From assembly GCA_022539475.1 (NCBI GenBank), contig VCMS01000011.1, forward strand, positions 310,001 to 374,000: a stretch of DNA of 64,000 nt. The letters run 5' to 3'. Positions 2,715-12,297 of the stretch are shown piece by piece. Positions within the stretch are counted from its first letter, which is position 1; the number at the start of each line of letters is the position of its first letter. The translations under genes and the position numbers were made by a program. This DNA comes from Gracilaria domingensis (taxonomy: Eukaryota; Rhodophyta; Florideophyceae; Gracilariales; Gracilariaceae). The notes below the pieces were generated by a model that made no database searches, was not told the origin of the DNA, and was given only the letters and a program-made list of their open reading frames with translations.

Positions 2715-5328
2715 ATGGCCAAGGAGCCGTCGGGCGTTGCCCGCGTTGGAAAATACCTCATGCTGCACACTCTGGGCGAGGGCGCGTTTGGCAAGGTGCG
2801 ACTCGCCGTCGATGAGACCACCGGCTTGGAGTATGCTATCAAGATTATGGACAAGTCCCATATCAAGGCCAACGAGCTCACCCTGCAGGTGCGCAGGGAA
2901 ATCGCCGTCATGAAGGCAATGACACATCGTATGTGGCCGTCTCTCGTCTTGTTCTTGCTGCGCGCGTTCAAATGCTAACGCTGTTGCGCTTCTGCGTGCG
3001 TGTGTGTGCGTTTTTTTTTTTTCCTTTTTCTCTTCGTTCCGTGCAGCAAACATTGTCAACCTGCATGGCGTTCTCACGTCTTCCAAGAACCTGTACATGG
3101 TCATGGACTTGGTCACCGGCGGTGAGCTGTTCGACGCCGTGGCTGAGCAAGGCCGCCTACCAGAGCCGTTGGCCAGATCCTACTTTCAGCAGCTCGTCGA
3201 TGGAATTCACTACTGCCATTCGCGCAGGGTTTACCACCGCGACCTCAAGCCGGAGAACCTGCTTCTAACAGCCGATAAGAAGACCATCAAAATCACCGAT
3301 TTTGGACTCTCCTCCATCAAGGCTGAGAATGCTGCCTCCGAGCTTTTGCACACCATTATGGGCTCTCCGCACTACATTGCGCCTGAGATTATCACCTCTG
3401 CGGAAAGTGGCTATGATGGCGCCAAGGTGGATGTTTGGGCTTCTGGCGTTATCTTGTTTGGTATGCTTGCTGGATATCTACCCTTTGATGAGACTGCTAC
3501 TCGTGCTTTGTACAAAGCTATTGTGCACAATCCCGTCAAGTATCCCCCTCATTTTTCATACGACTGTGTCAAGCTGTTGCGCGCTATGCTGCAAAAAGAC
3601 CCCAGTCGGAGGCCCACTATGGAACAGGTCAAGACCTTTCAGTGGTTTAGGGTCAACTACGAGCCGCCCGTTGTGGAAGAAAGCAAAGAAAAGACTGTGG
3701 AATCCTCCTCTCATCGAAAGAAAGGGAAGCATAAAACAAAGAGGAATCATCGCCAGCCGAAGAGGAAAGAAGCTCAAGGCAGCTCTTCGGCAAGGAGCGA
3801 AAACGAAACCTCACTGGACAGCATTCCTGCAGTTGCCTCTCCGCCGCACGACGAGTATACTAAAAGTCAATTGAATACGAGATCAAGCGTTGTTGTTGAG
3901 TTGCGAACAGCTTCGCTTGAGGATGGAGCTCCGAACAAGCAGAGCTCTTCCGATTCTGTTTCTCGTCAAGCTGGAAAGGAAAACCGCCACCCCTCCTCGT
4001 CGTTTCTCGCTGGAAAGAAGGATGCTTCAACCAATGCTCGAAATGATTCCGTTCGTGAGCCCCTCATGTCCCTGCGCGCCTCTGAGAATCGACTTTCCTC
4101 CCAGAGACTGACATTGGAGTCTTCAGACGCTCTGGGAGAATCACTTGATGTTCCTGTTTCTCAGACCCTGTATAACGTCGATGAACACTTTGACAAACTG
4201 GACGACTCCGCTAGTCCTGCGGAAGATGGAGCAGCCGCCCAACATTCTGCCCCCGCTTCGCGTGTGGGGACTGAAGATTCTTTCGATCAACATGCACATT
4301 CTTTGGAGCGTCTGAATTCCGTTGCAACAGATAAGCGGTCGTATTTGCGAAAGTCTCAAGGGTTCGAGTTCTGTGAGTTTGAGAACCGCAACAACTCAGC
4401 AGTAATGCGAATTTCAAGTCACTCGGAACGGGCGTCTCTCGCAAACTCCTCATCTGAGTTTGAGGAACCAACAAAGTTGGTCAAGTCGCACCCTGCGCCA
4501 TTTGAGCCCCGAGCACCGTCGCTGAACGAAGTGAAGACGAGCAGCTCCAATTCGACATCGGTTAGCGCTCCCCAACGCGATAGCATTCACGGCAGTGGCG
4601 AGAAAAGCCCTCCATTGTCTCTACGTATTGCAGATGAGGAGGAGAGGCAGTTTTGCCGCGAAGGGCAGTCTGTGACACCTCAATCATCGCTTGCTCATAA
4701 TCGTGAAAGGAAAGGCTCAAGTCGCAGACCAGACCTTAGCGGGAGGTTTTCCGACGATACTTTTGAACCGGCTTCGGCCCAGGCTTTCATATCGCCCGTC
4801 TCCTGGAATCCAGGCACAGAAAACGTGGGAAAGTATGATGCAAAGACGCCCACAGCCTCTCGAGGGATGAAGTTTGCTATGACCAACCTGGATTCTCCGA
4901 TGTCTGAGGGCAGTATATTCTCAAAGGCAAACGTACGATTGCAAGACTTAAATGCTCCAAGAACTGACACGAGCATCTTTAAGCCAATCAAGGCTAAGTT
5001 TGAGAAGCTGGCGACAGCGCAGACCCCCAAGGCGTCACAGCCTCAATGCAGTGCTCCTAGTGTGTTTAGTCCACAGATGGGAGAAGAAGTAGATCCAGTT
5101 GAAGATTGGAATATTGATTCTGCTTCTGTGTTTGCAGATGTGGAAGCTGATGACGATTCAGATTCCTTCACGCCAATGTCGGAATCTTCCGTGAATACTC
5201 CTGATACCAGATGGAAGTTCAAAAAGGTATTGGGAAGAACGTCGAACAAGGACGAAGACAGTCGGAAGTCAATTTTCGCCCCTCTCAGGCTAAACATTTC
5301 TGAGAAGCTGTCCCCTTCGAACAAGTGA
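2715..5328 (+). CDS. CIPK/SNF1-related Ser/Thr protein kinase (CAMK-like group)
   Basis: Two exons: 2715-2928 and 3047-5328. The intron 2929-3046 has a GTATGT donor and a T-rich tract before CAG; the splice restores the expected kinase motif HPNIV. Product 831 residues. The kinase domain occupies about residues 10-270: glycine loop GEGAFGKV, YAIKIMD lysine, HRDLKPEN, DFGLSS and GSPHYIAPE, so all catalytic residues are present. Sequence style is CAMK-like, closest to SnRK3/CIPK and AMPK-related kinases. The remaining 560 residues are a low-complexity Ser-rich tail without a visible NAF/FISL motif, so calcineurin-B-like regulation cannot be claimed. A decayed copy of the 3' end of this gene lies at 17560-18075. 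Confidence 0.85.
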
Positions 5329-6407: not shown

Positions 6408-7585
6408 GTGTGGCATCAGTCAGGCCAAGTCAGTTTCTGTCCGGAACGTTCTTGCTCTCAAGGCGCAACTGGAACACTGTTGACGCTGTCACAGACCGCG
6501 AAGCTTCTCTCCCTTCGGTCCTTTGGGGCTTCGTTTGGTGGCGTTTCGAACTCTGAAGATGGTAGTACCTTTTGGCGAAATCCTCTCACGGTATCGTCGT
6601 TTCTGGTGTCTTCCGTCGGATGGGCGCTGTTCACGCTGTTAGGGTTTCTTGTTCGGGAGGCAGCTACCAGAAGAAGAGAAGCACAAGATGCATGGGCAGC
6701 GATTGAACAATTCACTTGTCAAACTGCTAGACAGCTTGTGCAAATTTTTACAGCTGCAGCTGGCATGACGAAGATCGTAACCGTTTACAAGCACATTTGG
6801 CTGCATATCCATTGGCGTTGGCTCTGCATTTAGGCGGAGCTCAAAGACTTCAGCAAGGCATTAAGGCCCTATTGTGCGAAGAGGACTATATCGAAGTACT
6901 CAGAGCTAAGGAGCCACATTTGTCGAGTTCTAGAGGGTTGTGCGAGCATATCTGCCGAAACCGATTGCGCCAAAATATGTTACTTGGCGGAAGGTGGGCC
7001 GCCGCGGGGTTCCGAGTACACGCGAAATTTCGTTGGGAGAATTGTTGATAGGCTTGACGAGAGCTCCACTAATCTTCTTCGAATAGTAGAGTTTGAGCCG
7101 TCGAGGGGATACATAAATCATTTACGGCTGTTTATGTACGTCTGGCAGACATTGTCTGGTGCTTCTTTGTGCCGCTGGCATTTATTGCCGAAAATGGATG
7201 GTAAGTTAACACTGTTACTAACATTGATGTTAAACATTTAATGTTCTGAACAATAAGCGATGGACTTAAGTTCACGGTTCCACTTCCTACACAACATTTG
7301 GGAGCGCTTATTTGCCCATGCGTCGTTATCTCGTGCGTTTGGGTTCTTTCTATGAGTATCTACGAGTTTGTGTCTGATTCTAACTGCAATTTTGAGACAA
7401 TAATCGGTTGACTGGCAGGTTTACGGTTCTATGGTCTACAAGTATTGTATATGGTGTTAGTTCCGTCTTTTTCATTGCTTTCCGGCTTAACCATCCTTTT
7501 GGACATTTCGATGATGATATCAATTTGAAAGCATTTGGATCCGACGCATCTTTAAAGTCCTGTCAACTTTTGAAGATGAACCTGT
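6408..7585 (+). other. Bestrophin unit A (most decayed)
   Basis: Second membrane helix near 6585-6660, then the motif SWHDEDRNR in a different frame after a run of five T at about 6745. The dimerisation helix region around 6920-7000 is spread over several frames. Near 7137 a 14-base insertion lies between two copies of GTCTGG; without it, HLRLFMYVW joins CFFVPLAFIAENGW exactly as in unit E. A clean intron 7201-7418 (GTAAGT...CAG) then joins ENGW to a well-kept PFG segment (NHPFGHFDDDINL). Confidence 0.6.
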
Positions 7586-8650
7586 CGAATTGGACCATAT
7601 TTGGTCGTTCTTAGCGGACGCACAAGAGAATACTGCAGTTCTTCCATGGTTGGATTCATCAATGCCCCGCCCTTCGCGGGCACAATCAAGGCAAGAATCG
7701 CGATCCCAAAATTGGTCAAAGAGACTTATTTCCTCTGTAGTGCTTCAACTTCATGTTTCTCGAATTACCAGAAGGTCAGTTTTTATACCACTCTTGTACC
7801 ACACAAGTTGGACGATCGTTTCAGTGATTTTGTCGTGGGTTGCATCCCGAAGGATAAGTGACACAAGTAGCTACCAACAAACGTGCCACTGGTGGTGCAC
7901 TTACATTGGACCACACCCGCGGACAACTATAAAGATTTCCTTGGCTCTCTTTCTCTTTTTAGGCATTTGGGTGATGGACGCCTACAACCGTTACCGGAAC
8001 GCACTGCTGCTCTGGAACCGAGATCTGAGAAGCAACTTAAGCAATCTGGCAATCCATTTTGCGGCCTCCTGTCGACGAGGTTTTTGGCACGACGGGGACC
8101 GTGAACGTATCTTCTCGATTTTAGGAAACACGCCGTTCGTGCTGATGTCGCAACTTCGAGAAAGCCGCGATTTTGCCACTGTCCATGACATGATCTCGAA
8201 ACACGATTTAGAGGCCTTACGCCCAGCACCCAACCCAAGCAGCTATCTATTACATGTAATATACGGTTACCTGAACAGTGCAAGCGATCCTGCACGTGGA
8301 GCTTGCAAAGAAAAGAAAAGTCCATTCCGTGAGTCTATGTTCAACATTCAGCTGATCACATGGGCAGTAGAAAATATGATTCGAAGATGTCAAGGGTTAC
8401 ACAGATTCCCTCTTTCTCCAGTTCTAACAAAACATATACAGACTTTCTTGTATATCTAGCTTTTTATGCTTCCGTTCTCCATGGTTCAGGAAGACGGCTT
8501 CCTTACAATTCTATATTCGGTTCTGATAGGTTACTCAATTATATACCTTGTCGTTTTAGCACATGATTTGCAGGACCCCTTTGGAGAGGACCCAGATGGC
8601 CTTCCCCTCTTGGAGTTTTGCAACGAAATAAGGGATTCAGTTCGATCCGT
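7586..8650 (+). other. Bestrophin unit B (one in-frame stop)
   Basis: Intron-less unit read in one frame from about 7570 to 9118. Helix 1 FIPLLYHTSWTIVSVI, helix 2 ISLALFLFLGIW, then GFWHDGDRER and the PFG loop QDPFGEDPDGLPL. The only defect is TAG at 8457-8459, exactly where unit E has a conserved Trp (FMGIW versus FLYI-stop), a TGG to TAG change. The frame continues through the stop into unit C. Confidence 0.65.
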
Positions 8651-8779
8651 GTACATCGGCAGCATGCATTCATCGGGATTGTCCAGAGGCATGGAGTTGT
8701 ATTCTCGACATTCGTTTAGTCCTTTCTCTGCTCTCACTGAGAACCAAAGTCGAGACTCATCTGAGGGCAAACGAGTCTT

Positions 8780-9715
8780 CGACTCACCCAAATATGCTTT
8801 AGCGTGGCTGGGCGGTATACTCAGAAAAGGTATCTTGCAGATAAGGTCATTTTTCCCACGGACTAATCGATTAGCATTGCTAGCGTGCGTTTTGTGGTCA
8901 GTGGCTGCTGCATTCATATTCTATGGGTTGTCGTTGGTGTGGGATCAAAGTGGATGTGAAAACCTTGGCGCTGTAGCCCAGTACAAATTGACGGAGATGT
9001 TCTCAGCTATACTGGCTTCGTCTTATTTCTTCTCCTTGGTTTCCGAGCACGAGAGGCACTTGGGCGATATGAAAGCAGGATACTCGACTTTGACAAACTG
9101 GAAAACGAACTTCGATGTCTAGTATTGCAATTTGTTCAGACATTTCCGGACCACACATGGCACGCCAATGACAAAGAGAGAATAGTTGCTCATGTCGCTC
9201 AGATTTCTGTCTCATTCCAAAATGAGTTGGTAAAGACTGGCGCCGTTTATAGAAACAACGGTCTTCTTTCTACGGAAGATCAATCGGCTTTGGATTCTAG
9301 TGCAGAGTCTGCAGCCCAGTGCGGCACTGCCTTGAGTTACTGCAGCGTTACTTGCTTCACATGGATTCGCCTATTAGAGATCATTCGATTGTGGAATCAG
9401 ATTTCTCTGTCCCATCCCGACTACAAGGGTAGTTCGTTTTATGCTTGACAGGCTTACTCGAATACGACTAACAGTTTCATTCATAAGAACTGTGAAACGA
9501 TTTCCAGTCGTTCGTGGCATCACGAATCATCAGCAATTTTTAGCCGCAATATGGTTATTCCTCTTGCCGCTTGGAATGGTTGCCTTTTCTAGTTTTTATG
9601 CAATACTCAGTGATTTCATATGCCGTGCTCTGCCGAAACTCCTTCGCGTTCCGATTGCTGGACGCTCAACAAAGCTCCTTCGCTCGACTAGATGACCAGC
9701 TCTGCTCAAAGATTA
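8780..9715 (+). other. Bestrophin unit C (several frame changes)
   Basis: Helix 1 NRLALLACVLWSVAAAF near 8866 and helix 2 near 8995-9040, with a frame change about 9048 before GRYESRILDFDKLENELR. The motif TWHANDKER follows near 9157, with further frame changes near 9325, 9432 and about 9590. The PFG loop is degenerate (SSFARLDDQL near 9680). The chain then runs in one frame into the unit D linker. Confidence 0.5.
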
Positions 9716-11240
9716 CAGACGCTATTCTTGAAGCAGTAGATTCGGTGAAGTGGGATCATATTTATCATATTCTATCTGGTTCGGCGGAAGGCGAGGCGTT
9801 CTTGGGAGCAACTCTTCAAAATGGGAAGGTCACTGCGAGACACACATTGGCAGCACTTGGGAATTTAGCGCATGCTCCCTTTGAGGAAAGGAAAGAAAAT
9901 TTCATCCTGCCTCCAAAGCAGACCATGTTTAGAAAGACTATCCTCAACCATTTGGCGAACAGCTTTCCCTGGTGGTGGACCCTTACGGTGGGAATATGGA
10001 CAATTGCTGTGGTACTTTTCAACTTCGAAACGAAGCGAAAAGGATCTTCTGATAACGTTTCTTGGTGGGTACCGTCTTTCAGGATCAGCAAAGATATTGC
10101 GATTTACTTCGGCTTTGCAGGTACGTTTACTAGGTAGCTCGGTGTGTATATCGCAGGCATTTGAAGCATGGCATTACTAACATTTGTATGCGACTCTTTT
10201 TCGCTTATCTATCGTTCACGTTTCTTTCTTTATGTGAGGTAGCCCTTCTTTTGCTTGCATTCTATATGGAGATTTGTCTTAATCGATATAAGTTGGCAAC
10301 ATTTGTCTGGCGAGATAATCTAAGAAGTCAATGTCACGGCTTACTTGCGGTTTGGTTGAATTTGTTCCCCAGTGACACATGGCACAAAGGAGATCATGAT
10401 CGCGTCACTAGTCACATTGTGTCCCTTCCTTTAGTCCTCAAGATGGAGTTACGGAAAATCCGCGACATTAGAGAACTTAAAGGTCTTCTTTCCCAGCAAG
10501 ATTTGGGAAGAATAGTTTGTGCGGAGAACATGACATGGCATTGCTTGGACGTAATAAGATCATATTTTCTCGCAGCATCGGCGCATATGTCATCGCTAGA
10601 GAAACCATGTAGAGTACTTGGAACAAAACGGAGAAGCAAATTTTGGAATGAGCTCTTGAAGATAGAAAACTCCATCGCAACATGTATGTTTGTCAAAGAC
10701 GCTGACGTTGCTCCGATTGGGAAGGTATTACTCAGATTTCTACTTGTTTTGTGGATTACCATTTTCCCATTTATCATTGTCGACAGTACAGGTAAGCATC
10801 GATTTCCTTCGGTACCAAAGGTATACAGACTATCTGCAGAACTTCGCGATCGGCATCATCCTGTTTCCCTTTTTCTATATATTTTCATTACCGCTGACGT
10901 TCTCGTTTCGATGTATACATCCGTAGGTTGGATGACTTTAGTCGTTGTGCCTCTTGTCGTCTATGGTCTACTTGGGTACGTGACGAGTATCTTCGTGCTA
11001 ATATGAAGCAAAGCGCGCCTCAACGATTCCAATACGAAAATATGCTGACATTTGCTGGAACTATGCGTCCATCACTCCCTTATAACTTCAAAGGCTGTAC
11101 AAAATTACGAATGAAATCAAGGATCCTTTTGGTCGCGATGTGAATGATTTCGATTTAGATGACTTATCTGGCGGCATTGTACGGGACCTGCTCTTCGTGC
11201 ATCAGAACTACATTCGCGGTTTCAAAACTCTAATAAGGAG
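9716..11240 (+). other. Bestrophin unit D (intact, four exons)
   Basis: Unbroken once three introns are removed. Intron 10121-10242 (GTACGT...TAG) joins IYFGFA to ALLLLAFYMEICLNRYK. Intron 10792-10926 (GTAAGC...TAG) joins IVDSTG to WMTLVVV. Intron 10976-11093 (GTACGT...AAG) joins YGLLG to LYKITNEIKDPFGRD. Motifs TWHKGDHDR and KDPFGRDVNDFDL are both canonical. This unit shows that the gene used real spliceosomal introns and that the breaks elsewhere are not all unrecognised introns. Confidence 0.7.
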
Positions 11241-12297
11241 GGGCATGAACAAGAAATTTTTGGGTCCCGAACCTTGGACATGCATTCACAAGATACGAAG
11301 AAAGTTGGTAATTCGAAACTTAAGTTTTCACTGTGGTCTTCGTTGCGATTAGCAGCCGATCTGTTGCCACTTAAATTCCTTTTGGCATTGATCGTTTGGT
11401 CGTTGGGAATTAGCTGGCTGTCATTAGTGTTTCGTCTAAAGCCTCCGGCAGTTGAAGATCATGAGTGTGGTCCATGGTGGTGCAGTTCTATTGCTTTTGA
11501 AATCAAACATCTTCAAGTTCTCTGGATTTGCATTGTTTCTACTACTCAGTAAGCGATTGCATGAAATGCACGAAAAGTATGTCCTTAGTTTGATCAAGTG
11601 GCGGCAAGATATGACGAGCCTTCCTCGATTGGTTATGAATCGTATCTACGCCAGTACAGGGCGAGGTTTGTTTCACCAGGATGACTTTGAACGTTTAGGA
11701 GCCCACATGTCGGCATACATAATTTCTGCCGCTGCGGAGTTGAGGCATTGGGATATGGTGGGAGACGAGTTGAAGCAGGCGGAGATGAAGTATAGAAAAG
11801 AGCTTGAGAATGTGATGACGGAATCAGACATAAGTCGGGTTCTCGCCTCTGAGGAGCGCGCAGAATACTGTTGGGATGTGATCACGTACTACATAATATC
11901 TAGAGACTACGAATCGAGACATAAGACGCCACCAAACGAAGTGAGGGCTATAATGGCACTGTTATCAAGGATGCAAACCATTTTAGGAGATTGCAAGACC
12001 TTGCAAAGAGAAGACATGCCGTTTGGGTATGTTGTGCATCTAAGATTATTCATGGGCATATGGATGATACTTCTTCCCCTGGGTTTAGTTGAGTCGTCTG
12101 GATGGCTCGCGCCATTGTGGGTTCTTTTGATTGGTTTCGGTATTATTGGTGTAGAACGATGGTCAGAAGAGCTTCGAAATCCATTTGGAACAGATACATC
12201 CGATATACCTTTAAATGCTTTAAAGAAGAGAGTAATGGAAGGCAAACTCGAAAGCTACCGAGTTTTTGAAGAGAAGGGGGGGGTGCGTCATCCTTGA
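11241..12297 (+). other. Bestrophin unit E and C-terminus
   Basis: Helix 1 near 11345-11440 (PLKFLLALIVWSLGISWL), WWCSS near 11477, then one extra base in a run of T at about 11500. After that the chain is open to the stop at 12297. Motifs: LFHQDDFER, HLRLFMGIWMILLPLGLVE and the textbook loop RNPFGTDTSDIPL. It ends about 30 residues after the loop, which suits a natural C-terminus. Confidence 0.65.

Follow-up and report, generated by a model that had tools for sequence, protein, structure and literature searches.

Can all five walls of a bestrophin channel be supplied by a single polypeptide chain? The question is raised by a locus in the red alga Gracilaria domingensis, in a 64,000-nucleotide stretch (here referred to as the window) that corresponds to positions 310001-374000 of contig C11 (VCMS01000011.1) in an assembly of 77.9 Mb and 680 contigs. 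A reading made from the letters alone (the sequence-only reading) had proposed that this locus encodes five bestrophin units in one chain, a candidate single-polypeptide pentameric anion channel. We consider it probable that the locus is a decayed paralogue of red-algal genes that, where intact, encode five bestrophin units in a chain of ~1,800 amino acids, a chain that would likeliest form one pseudo-pentamer.

The evidence for intact members comes from other loci and other species. In the same genome, the locus on contig C203 has three introns and no frameshift or stop, and is annotated as a single protein of 1859 amino acids (P0007, "Bestrophin/UPF0187") with all five units, designated A to E, intact. 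Our spliced model of this locus matches P0007 at 1856/1856 matched codons, and a single open frame of 1118 codons covers units B, C, and most of D, crossing two unit junctions. A second locus, on contig C160, contains four introns and is likewise free of frameshifts and stops. Five-unit proteins are also present in Agarophyton chilense and in Gracilariopsis chorda, the latter represented by "hypothetical protein BWQ96_08484" (P0009), which has 1821 amino acids and five intact units. We collected relatives with two large protein searches, one using a three-unit piece as the query (615 to 1956 amino acids allowed; 39 proteins) and one using the whole of P0007 (1022 to 3253 amino acids allowed; 30 proteins). 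Together these yielded 52 different multi-unit proteins, with each search scoring only the ~8,000 candidates that shared most words with its query; a query of unit E alone produced six further proteins. When the 52 proteins were grouped by hand according to unit content, compared without their DNA, eight held A through E, and all five units were complete in four of these (P0007, P0009, P0015, and P0018). The remainder comprised 21 proteins with the tail of A followed by B to E, 10 with the tail of A, B, C, and the start of D, 5 with A to C and the start of D, 4 with B to E, 3 with A to D, and 1 with A to C. Many of these partial proteins start or stop near the conserved introns, and they look like unspliced open reading frames (ORFs) of longer genes. 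Since other entries from the source of P0015 and P0018 have this appearance, these two proteins appear to be five-unit ORFs without interruption. In none of the 52 proteins drawn from ~8,000 scored candidates per search did the units number more than five or stand in a different order. Pfam alone placed five stretches of PF25539 (Bestrophin_2) in each of the four complete proteins, and at 70% identity over units B and C the 52 proteins formed 43 clusters.

The sequence-only reading had suggested a tree of the units as a check on whether they pair across species, and they do so by position. We built a quick tree of 72 rows and a careful tree of 67 rows, the latter omitting the long branch P0058_B as well as four near-copies from contig C403. 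The rows were units from 12 multi-unit proteins (out of the 52), from the C160 locus, from the window copy, and (in the quick tree only) from C403, together with two single-unit genes and four bacterial sequences. For bacterial outgroups we used plasmids, choosing 4 of the 15 records that matched; a search of prokaryote contigs by means of an E-unit alignment gave 20 pattern matches, none of them confirmed as a relative. In the careful tree, units A, B, C, D, and E each formed one clade, with bootstrap support of 100 and Shimodaira-Hasegawa-like approximate likelihood ratio test (SH-aLRT) values of 99 to 100, and each window unit fell into its matching clade; the quick tree recovered the same five clades. 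We therefore conclude that the split among the units is older than the split of these species and paralogues, and that there was one five-unit ancestor. The single-unit bestrophin gene on contig C62 branched just outside all five clades (support for the five-unit group, 92/90), and that on contig C87 branched deeper, on a long branch, in both trees. From this topology, the five-unit ancestor probably arose when a gene like C62 was duplicated in tandem, and C62 may resemble the ancestor of the five-unit family. The order of the duplications was poorly resolved, with bootstrap values of 80 to 82. In the three proteins tested, units within one protein were only 18 to 31% alike, which, together with the position-wise pairing in the tree, rules out a recent tandem duplication. 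Bacterial contamination is ruled out by introns that the window copy shares in position with C160 and C203.

We next compared residues and linkers among the five unit classes, with each unit assigned to the class of the nearest P0007 unit (one short tail of P0058 is labeled C by this rule, while its place says A). The H, D, and R of the WH-D-R motif, and the PFG loop with its two aspartates, were conserved in almost every row of each class. Class D had lost both the W of WH-D-R and a histidine common to the other four classes in 36/36 rows. For the hydrophobic neck, we used the bacterial channel KpBest as a guide, taking its neck residues to be I62, I66, and F70. The aligned positions were mostly hydrophobic in all five classes, so that the family retains such a neck: the position aligned to I62 was mostly W in A, mostly L in B, and mostly F in C, D, and E; the second was often T in class D (19 rows); and the third was F in most rows. 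Linkers between units measured 41 to 136 amino acids (medians, 52 to 69), with a mean majority frequency of 0.33 to 0.38 versus 0.56 to 0.64 for the units. The few linker residues that were kept differed from junction to junction and were specific to each.

How might such a chain assemble? By sequence, unit E matched 22 distinct Protein Data Bank (PDB) sequences, 20 of which were deposited as five chains per entry. From the behavior of this family, we strongly infer that the chain would fold into one pentameric channel. For a chain that carries five units, the simplest assembly is a single ring made by each chain: every unit would contribute a fifth of the wall around one pore, and a linker of ~40 to 140 residues would lead from a unit's C-terminal tail to the first membrane helix of the unit after it. 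Since each position has evolved on its own, the predicted product is a covalently linked pseudo-pentamer with unequal subunits in fixed order. The chain could instead be a polyprotein, translated as one product and cut within the linkers into five subunits that assemble as an ordinary heteropentamer. The linkers are indeed long and poorly conserved, and algal polyproteins are known, with dinoflagellate examples in the reference list of PMC11453091. However, no cleavage motif common to the linkers was apparent by eye, although no systematic search for protease sites was made, and a fixed order of five distinct units would be needless if they were cut free; we regard this alternative as unlikely. 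We consider it distinctly unlikely that pentamers are built from units of at least two chains or that some units lie outside the pore, for example in a regulatory role. The units are certainly unequal, as the losses in class D illustrate, but a chain has exactly as many units as the ring has subunits, and no protein was found to have a different complete number of units, even with lengths of up to 3253 amino acids allowed.

We then examined what remains of this architecture in the window. A hidden Markov model (HMM) of the unit was built from the intact paralogue and run on window pieces; 13 pieces covered all five units, 12 of them with E values from 1.3e-54 to 8.3e-4 and one with 0.16. Applied to pieces of window ORFs with its cut-off of 27 bits, PF25539 recognized unit B (two pieces, 32.2 and 40.8 bits), D (31.9 bits), and E (106.6 bits), which makes the locus a member of this Pfam family; a piece of unit C fell just below the cut-off (26.1 bits), and a piece of unit A fell far below it (11.7 bits; E value, 0.18). 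Bestrophin-like units lie in the order A-B-C-D-E on the + strand, exactly five in number, from 6552 to 12237 (first to last unit HMM match). A spliced alignment matched P0007 residues 143-1808 in order to window positions 6570-12216, with 553 of 1622 aligned codons identical (~34%); identity was 33 to 39% in the units and 12 to 16% in the linkers. In the translations, examined by eye, H, D, and R of the WH-D-R motif are legible in all five units and W is replaced by F in unit E, so that the claim of five such motifs stands except for this residue. A legible PFG loop is present in four units (A, B, D, and E); that of unit C is degenerate, in agreement with the sequence-only reading.

Unit A (6552 to 7559, + strand, as are all features of this copy) is a remnant split by intron 1, with HMM pieces at 6552-6755, 6743-6913, 7029-7217, and 7408-7551. 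Unit B occupies 7767 to 8660 by Pfam, HMM, and alignment. Unit C extends from 8841 to 9741 (HMM pieces, 8966-9325 and 9423-9608). Unit D, at 9946 to 11193, is split by introns 2 to 4 into HMM pieces at 9952-10119, 10242-10793, 10869-10982 (the weak piece, with an E value of 0.16), and 11095-11190. Unit E, at 11367 to 12237, is the best preserved by Pfam (ORF 11440-12297), HMM, and alignment. Four introns occupy the places and phases of the four C160 introns, and three of them are also found in C203: intron 1 (7201 to 7418, GTAAGT..CAG, phase 2; C203 and C160), intron 2 (10121 to 10242, GTACGT..TAG, phase 1; C160), intron 3 (~10792 to 10926, phase 1; C203 and C160), and intron 4 (10976 to 11093, GTACGT..AAG, phase 2; C203 and C160). 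The donor of intron 3 (GTAAGC at 10792) was picked by eye, the program having placed it at 10821 or 10786 in two runs. Just upstream of the locus, an open frame of 801 codons at 2923 to 5328 (+ strand) contains, by eye, a protein-kinase domain (HRDLKPENLLL).

The five units do not form one open spliced frame in the window. A splice- and frameshift-aware alignment to P0007 gave 12 frameshifts in a first run and 11 once extra P0007 residues around intron 3 were removed, along with a single in-frame stop, a TAG at 8457-8459 in unit B; the same method found no counterpart of P0007 residues 1-142 at the locus. The frameshifts lie in unit A (near 6756, 6938, 7146, and 7555), in unit C (near 8964, 9305, 9418, and 9606), shortly ahead of unit E (near 11250), and within the first part of that unit (near 11493). 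Counted as separate events they number about 10, since two neighbors near 11250 have the effect of a single one; with the frameshift penalty set at 10, 14, 20, and 28, the alignment gave 13, 11, 10, and 8 frameshifts, respectively, with one stop every time. As controls, C203 and C160 each gave 0 frameshifts and 0 stops by the same method, and eight reverse-translated intact relatives (31 to 44% identity) gave 1 frameshift in total and 0 stops. In these eight intronless controls the program also called seven spurious introns; our case for the window introns therefore lies in the positions they share with the other loci, not in the program calls. The claim of the sequence-only reading accordingly holds for five units in order and fails for one chain: the window copy is most likely an old paralogue that has become a pseudogene, decayed and unable to make the chain. 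We also weighed whether the frameshifts are assembly errors in a live, divergent third five-unit gene. Frameshifts do outnumber stops by about 10 to 1, as expected for sequencing indels, and open stretches of 313, 290, and 285 amino acids persist. Such errors are less likely because the comparable genes C203 and C160, from the same assembly, are free of frameshifts over >10 kb of coding sequence, and the loss of the 142 N-terminal residues and a stop that is a substitution-type change also argue for true decay, making a live gene here very improbable.

The sequence-only reading had further proposed looking for one long transcript that spans two or more units, and here the outcome was divided. 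P0008 (GEZJ01002761), an ORF of 1439 amino acids from what we take, by the G prefix of its accession and that of GFKZ, to be a transcriptome assembly, spans units A to D. The last residues of P0008 leave the family frame near the end of D, and by eye the next stretch follows in another frame; an indel, an alternative splice, or an assembly error in that transcript may account for this. P0004 (GFKZ01002204), a transcript-derived ORF of 321 amino acids, holds unit E alone, an outcome of the type that the sequence-only reading had named as evidence against its proposal. The idea that gene prediction wrongly joined five neighboring single-unit genes, prompted by the automatic origin of some public models (P0007 and P0009), is hardly credible and largely refuted by the 1118-codon frame of C203 across two junctions, by the four units of P0008, and by P0015 and P0018, each with five units and both from a source in which the remaining entries resemble unspliced ORFs. 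The original postulate of an ancestral gene in which exactly five units were fused is strongly supported by the two clean loci, the five-unit proteins of other gracilarioids, P0008, and the tree.

Several observations weigh against the proposal of one chain and one ring. The window copy itself is a pseudogene; P0004 carries unit E only, and this ORF, which starts within the first membrane helix in the alignment, is likely a truncated transcript. The identified species among the carriers of five units are all gracilarioids. By sequence, the solved structures are matched by unit E only, and 2 of the 22 PDB sequences (7ek1/7ek2 and 7ek3) were deposited as one chain per entry. Taking these together with the evidence above, we think it probable that a concatenated pentameric channel evolved once in red algae, with one chain equal to one ring and a position-specialized, asymmetric pore, and that its five units were kept through wide divergence while single-unit bestrophins persisted beside it.

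The remaining bestrophin loci of the genome fall into degraded copies and single-unit genes. The copy on C403 (L023, G000:C403:14500-24400, - strand) lacks unit A and has 2 frameshifts and 4 stops, and its units are near-copies of those of C160 in trees. Beside it lies an open frame of 585 codons (L023 8145-9899, - strand) that by eye resembles a retrotransposon integrase and is perhaps linked to the duplication or decay of this copy. The copy on C238 (L025) has 4 frameshifts, 4 stops, and large gaps, and that on C130 (L027) is a degraded unit-E fragment with 1 frameshift; a kinase frame similar to the one in the window adjoins this fragment (L027 4637-5515), a resemblance that may be chance. 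The single-unit genes on C62 (L026, G000:C62:223500-232500, - strand) and C87 (L024, G000:C87:68500-76500, - strand) have five introns and one intron, respectively, and their matched parts are free of frameshifts and stops. Classical bestrophin (PF01062) had no match in this genome, a negative that carries no information because none of 14 control genomes gave a match either.

How does this family compare with known systems? Intact five-unit members were already in public databases as P0007 and P0009, under names that do not mention a five-in-one architecture. KpBest (PDB 4wd7 and 4wd8) belongs to the same family (unit E match, E value of ~1e-15) and shares the hydrophobic neck, but has one unit per chain and five chains per entry. 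The rhodopsin-bestrophin fusion (PDB 7pl9), an algal giant bestrophin that also matches unit E, differs in joining one bestrophin unit to rhodopsin in a chain of 1187 amino acids, with five chains and no bestrophin concatemer. Chlamydomonas BST1-3 and the diatom PtBST1 presumably have one unit per chain as well. Four-domain voltage-gated sodium and calcium channels, the textbook example of a ring made from one protein, carry all their ring subunits in a single chain, and these have diverged by position; the five-unit chain would be their five-fold counterpart in principle, although these cation channels have four units and an unrelated fold. We know of no natural channel with five ring subunits fused into one chain, and a search of the open-access literature, with most subscription journals and all of bioRxiv outside it, found no description of a five-in-one bestrophin or a natural pseudo-pentamer.

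If the proposal is correct, a fixed subunit order would be attainable for pentamers as it is for four-domain channels, and the five parts of a bestrophin pore could be altered one at a time. The green-algal and diatom BST proteins are linked to chloride or bicarbonate transport in the excerpted text of PMC11142338, which also states that red algae have homologues but no orthologues of that BST clade. By analogy, the putative five-unit channel perhaps conducts small ions such as chloride or bicarbonate, and it may thus have a role in the movement of these ions in these seaweeds, agar crops included.

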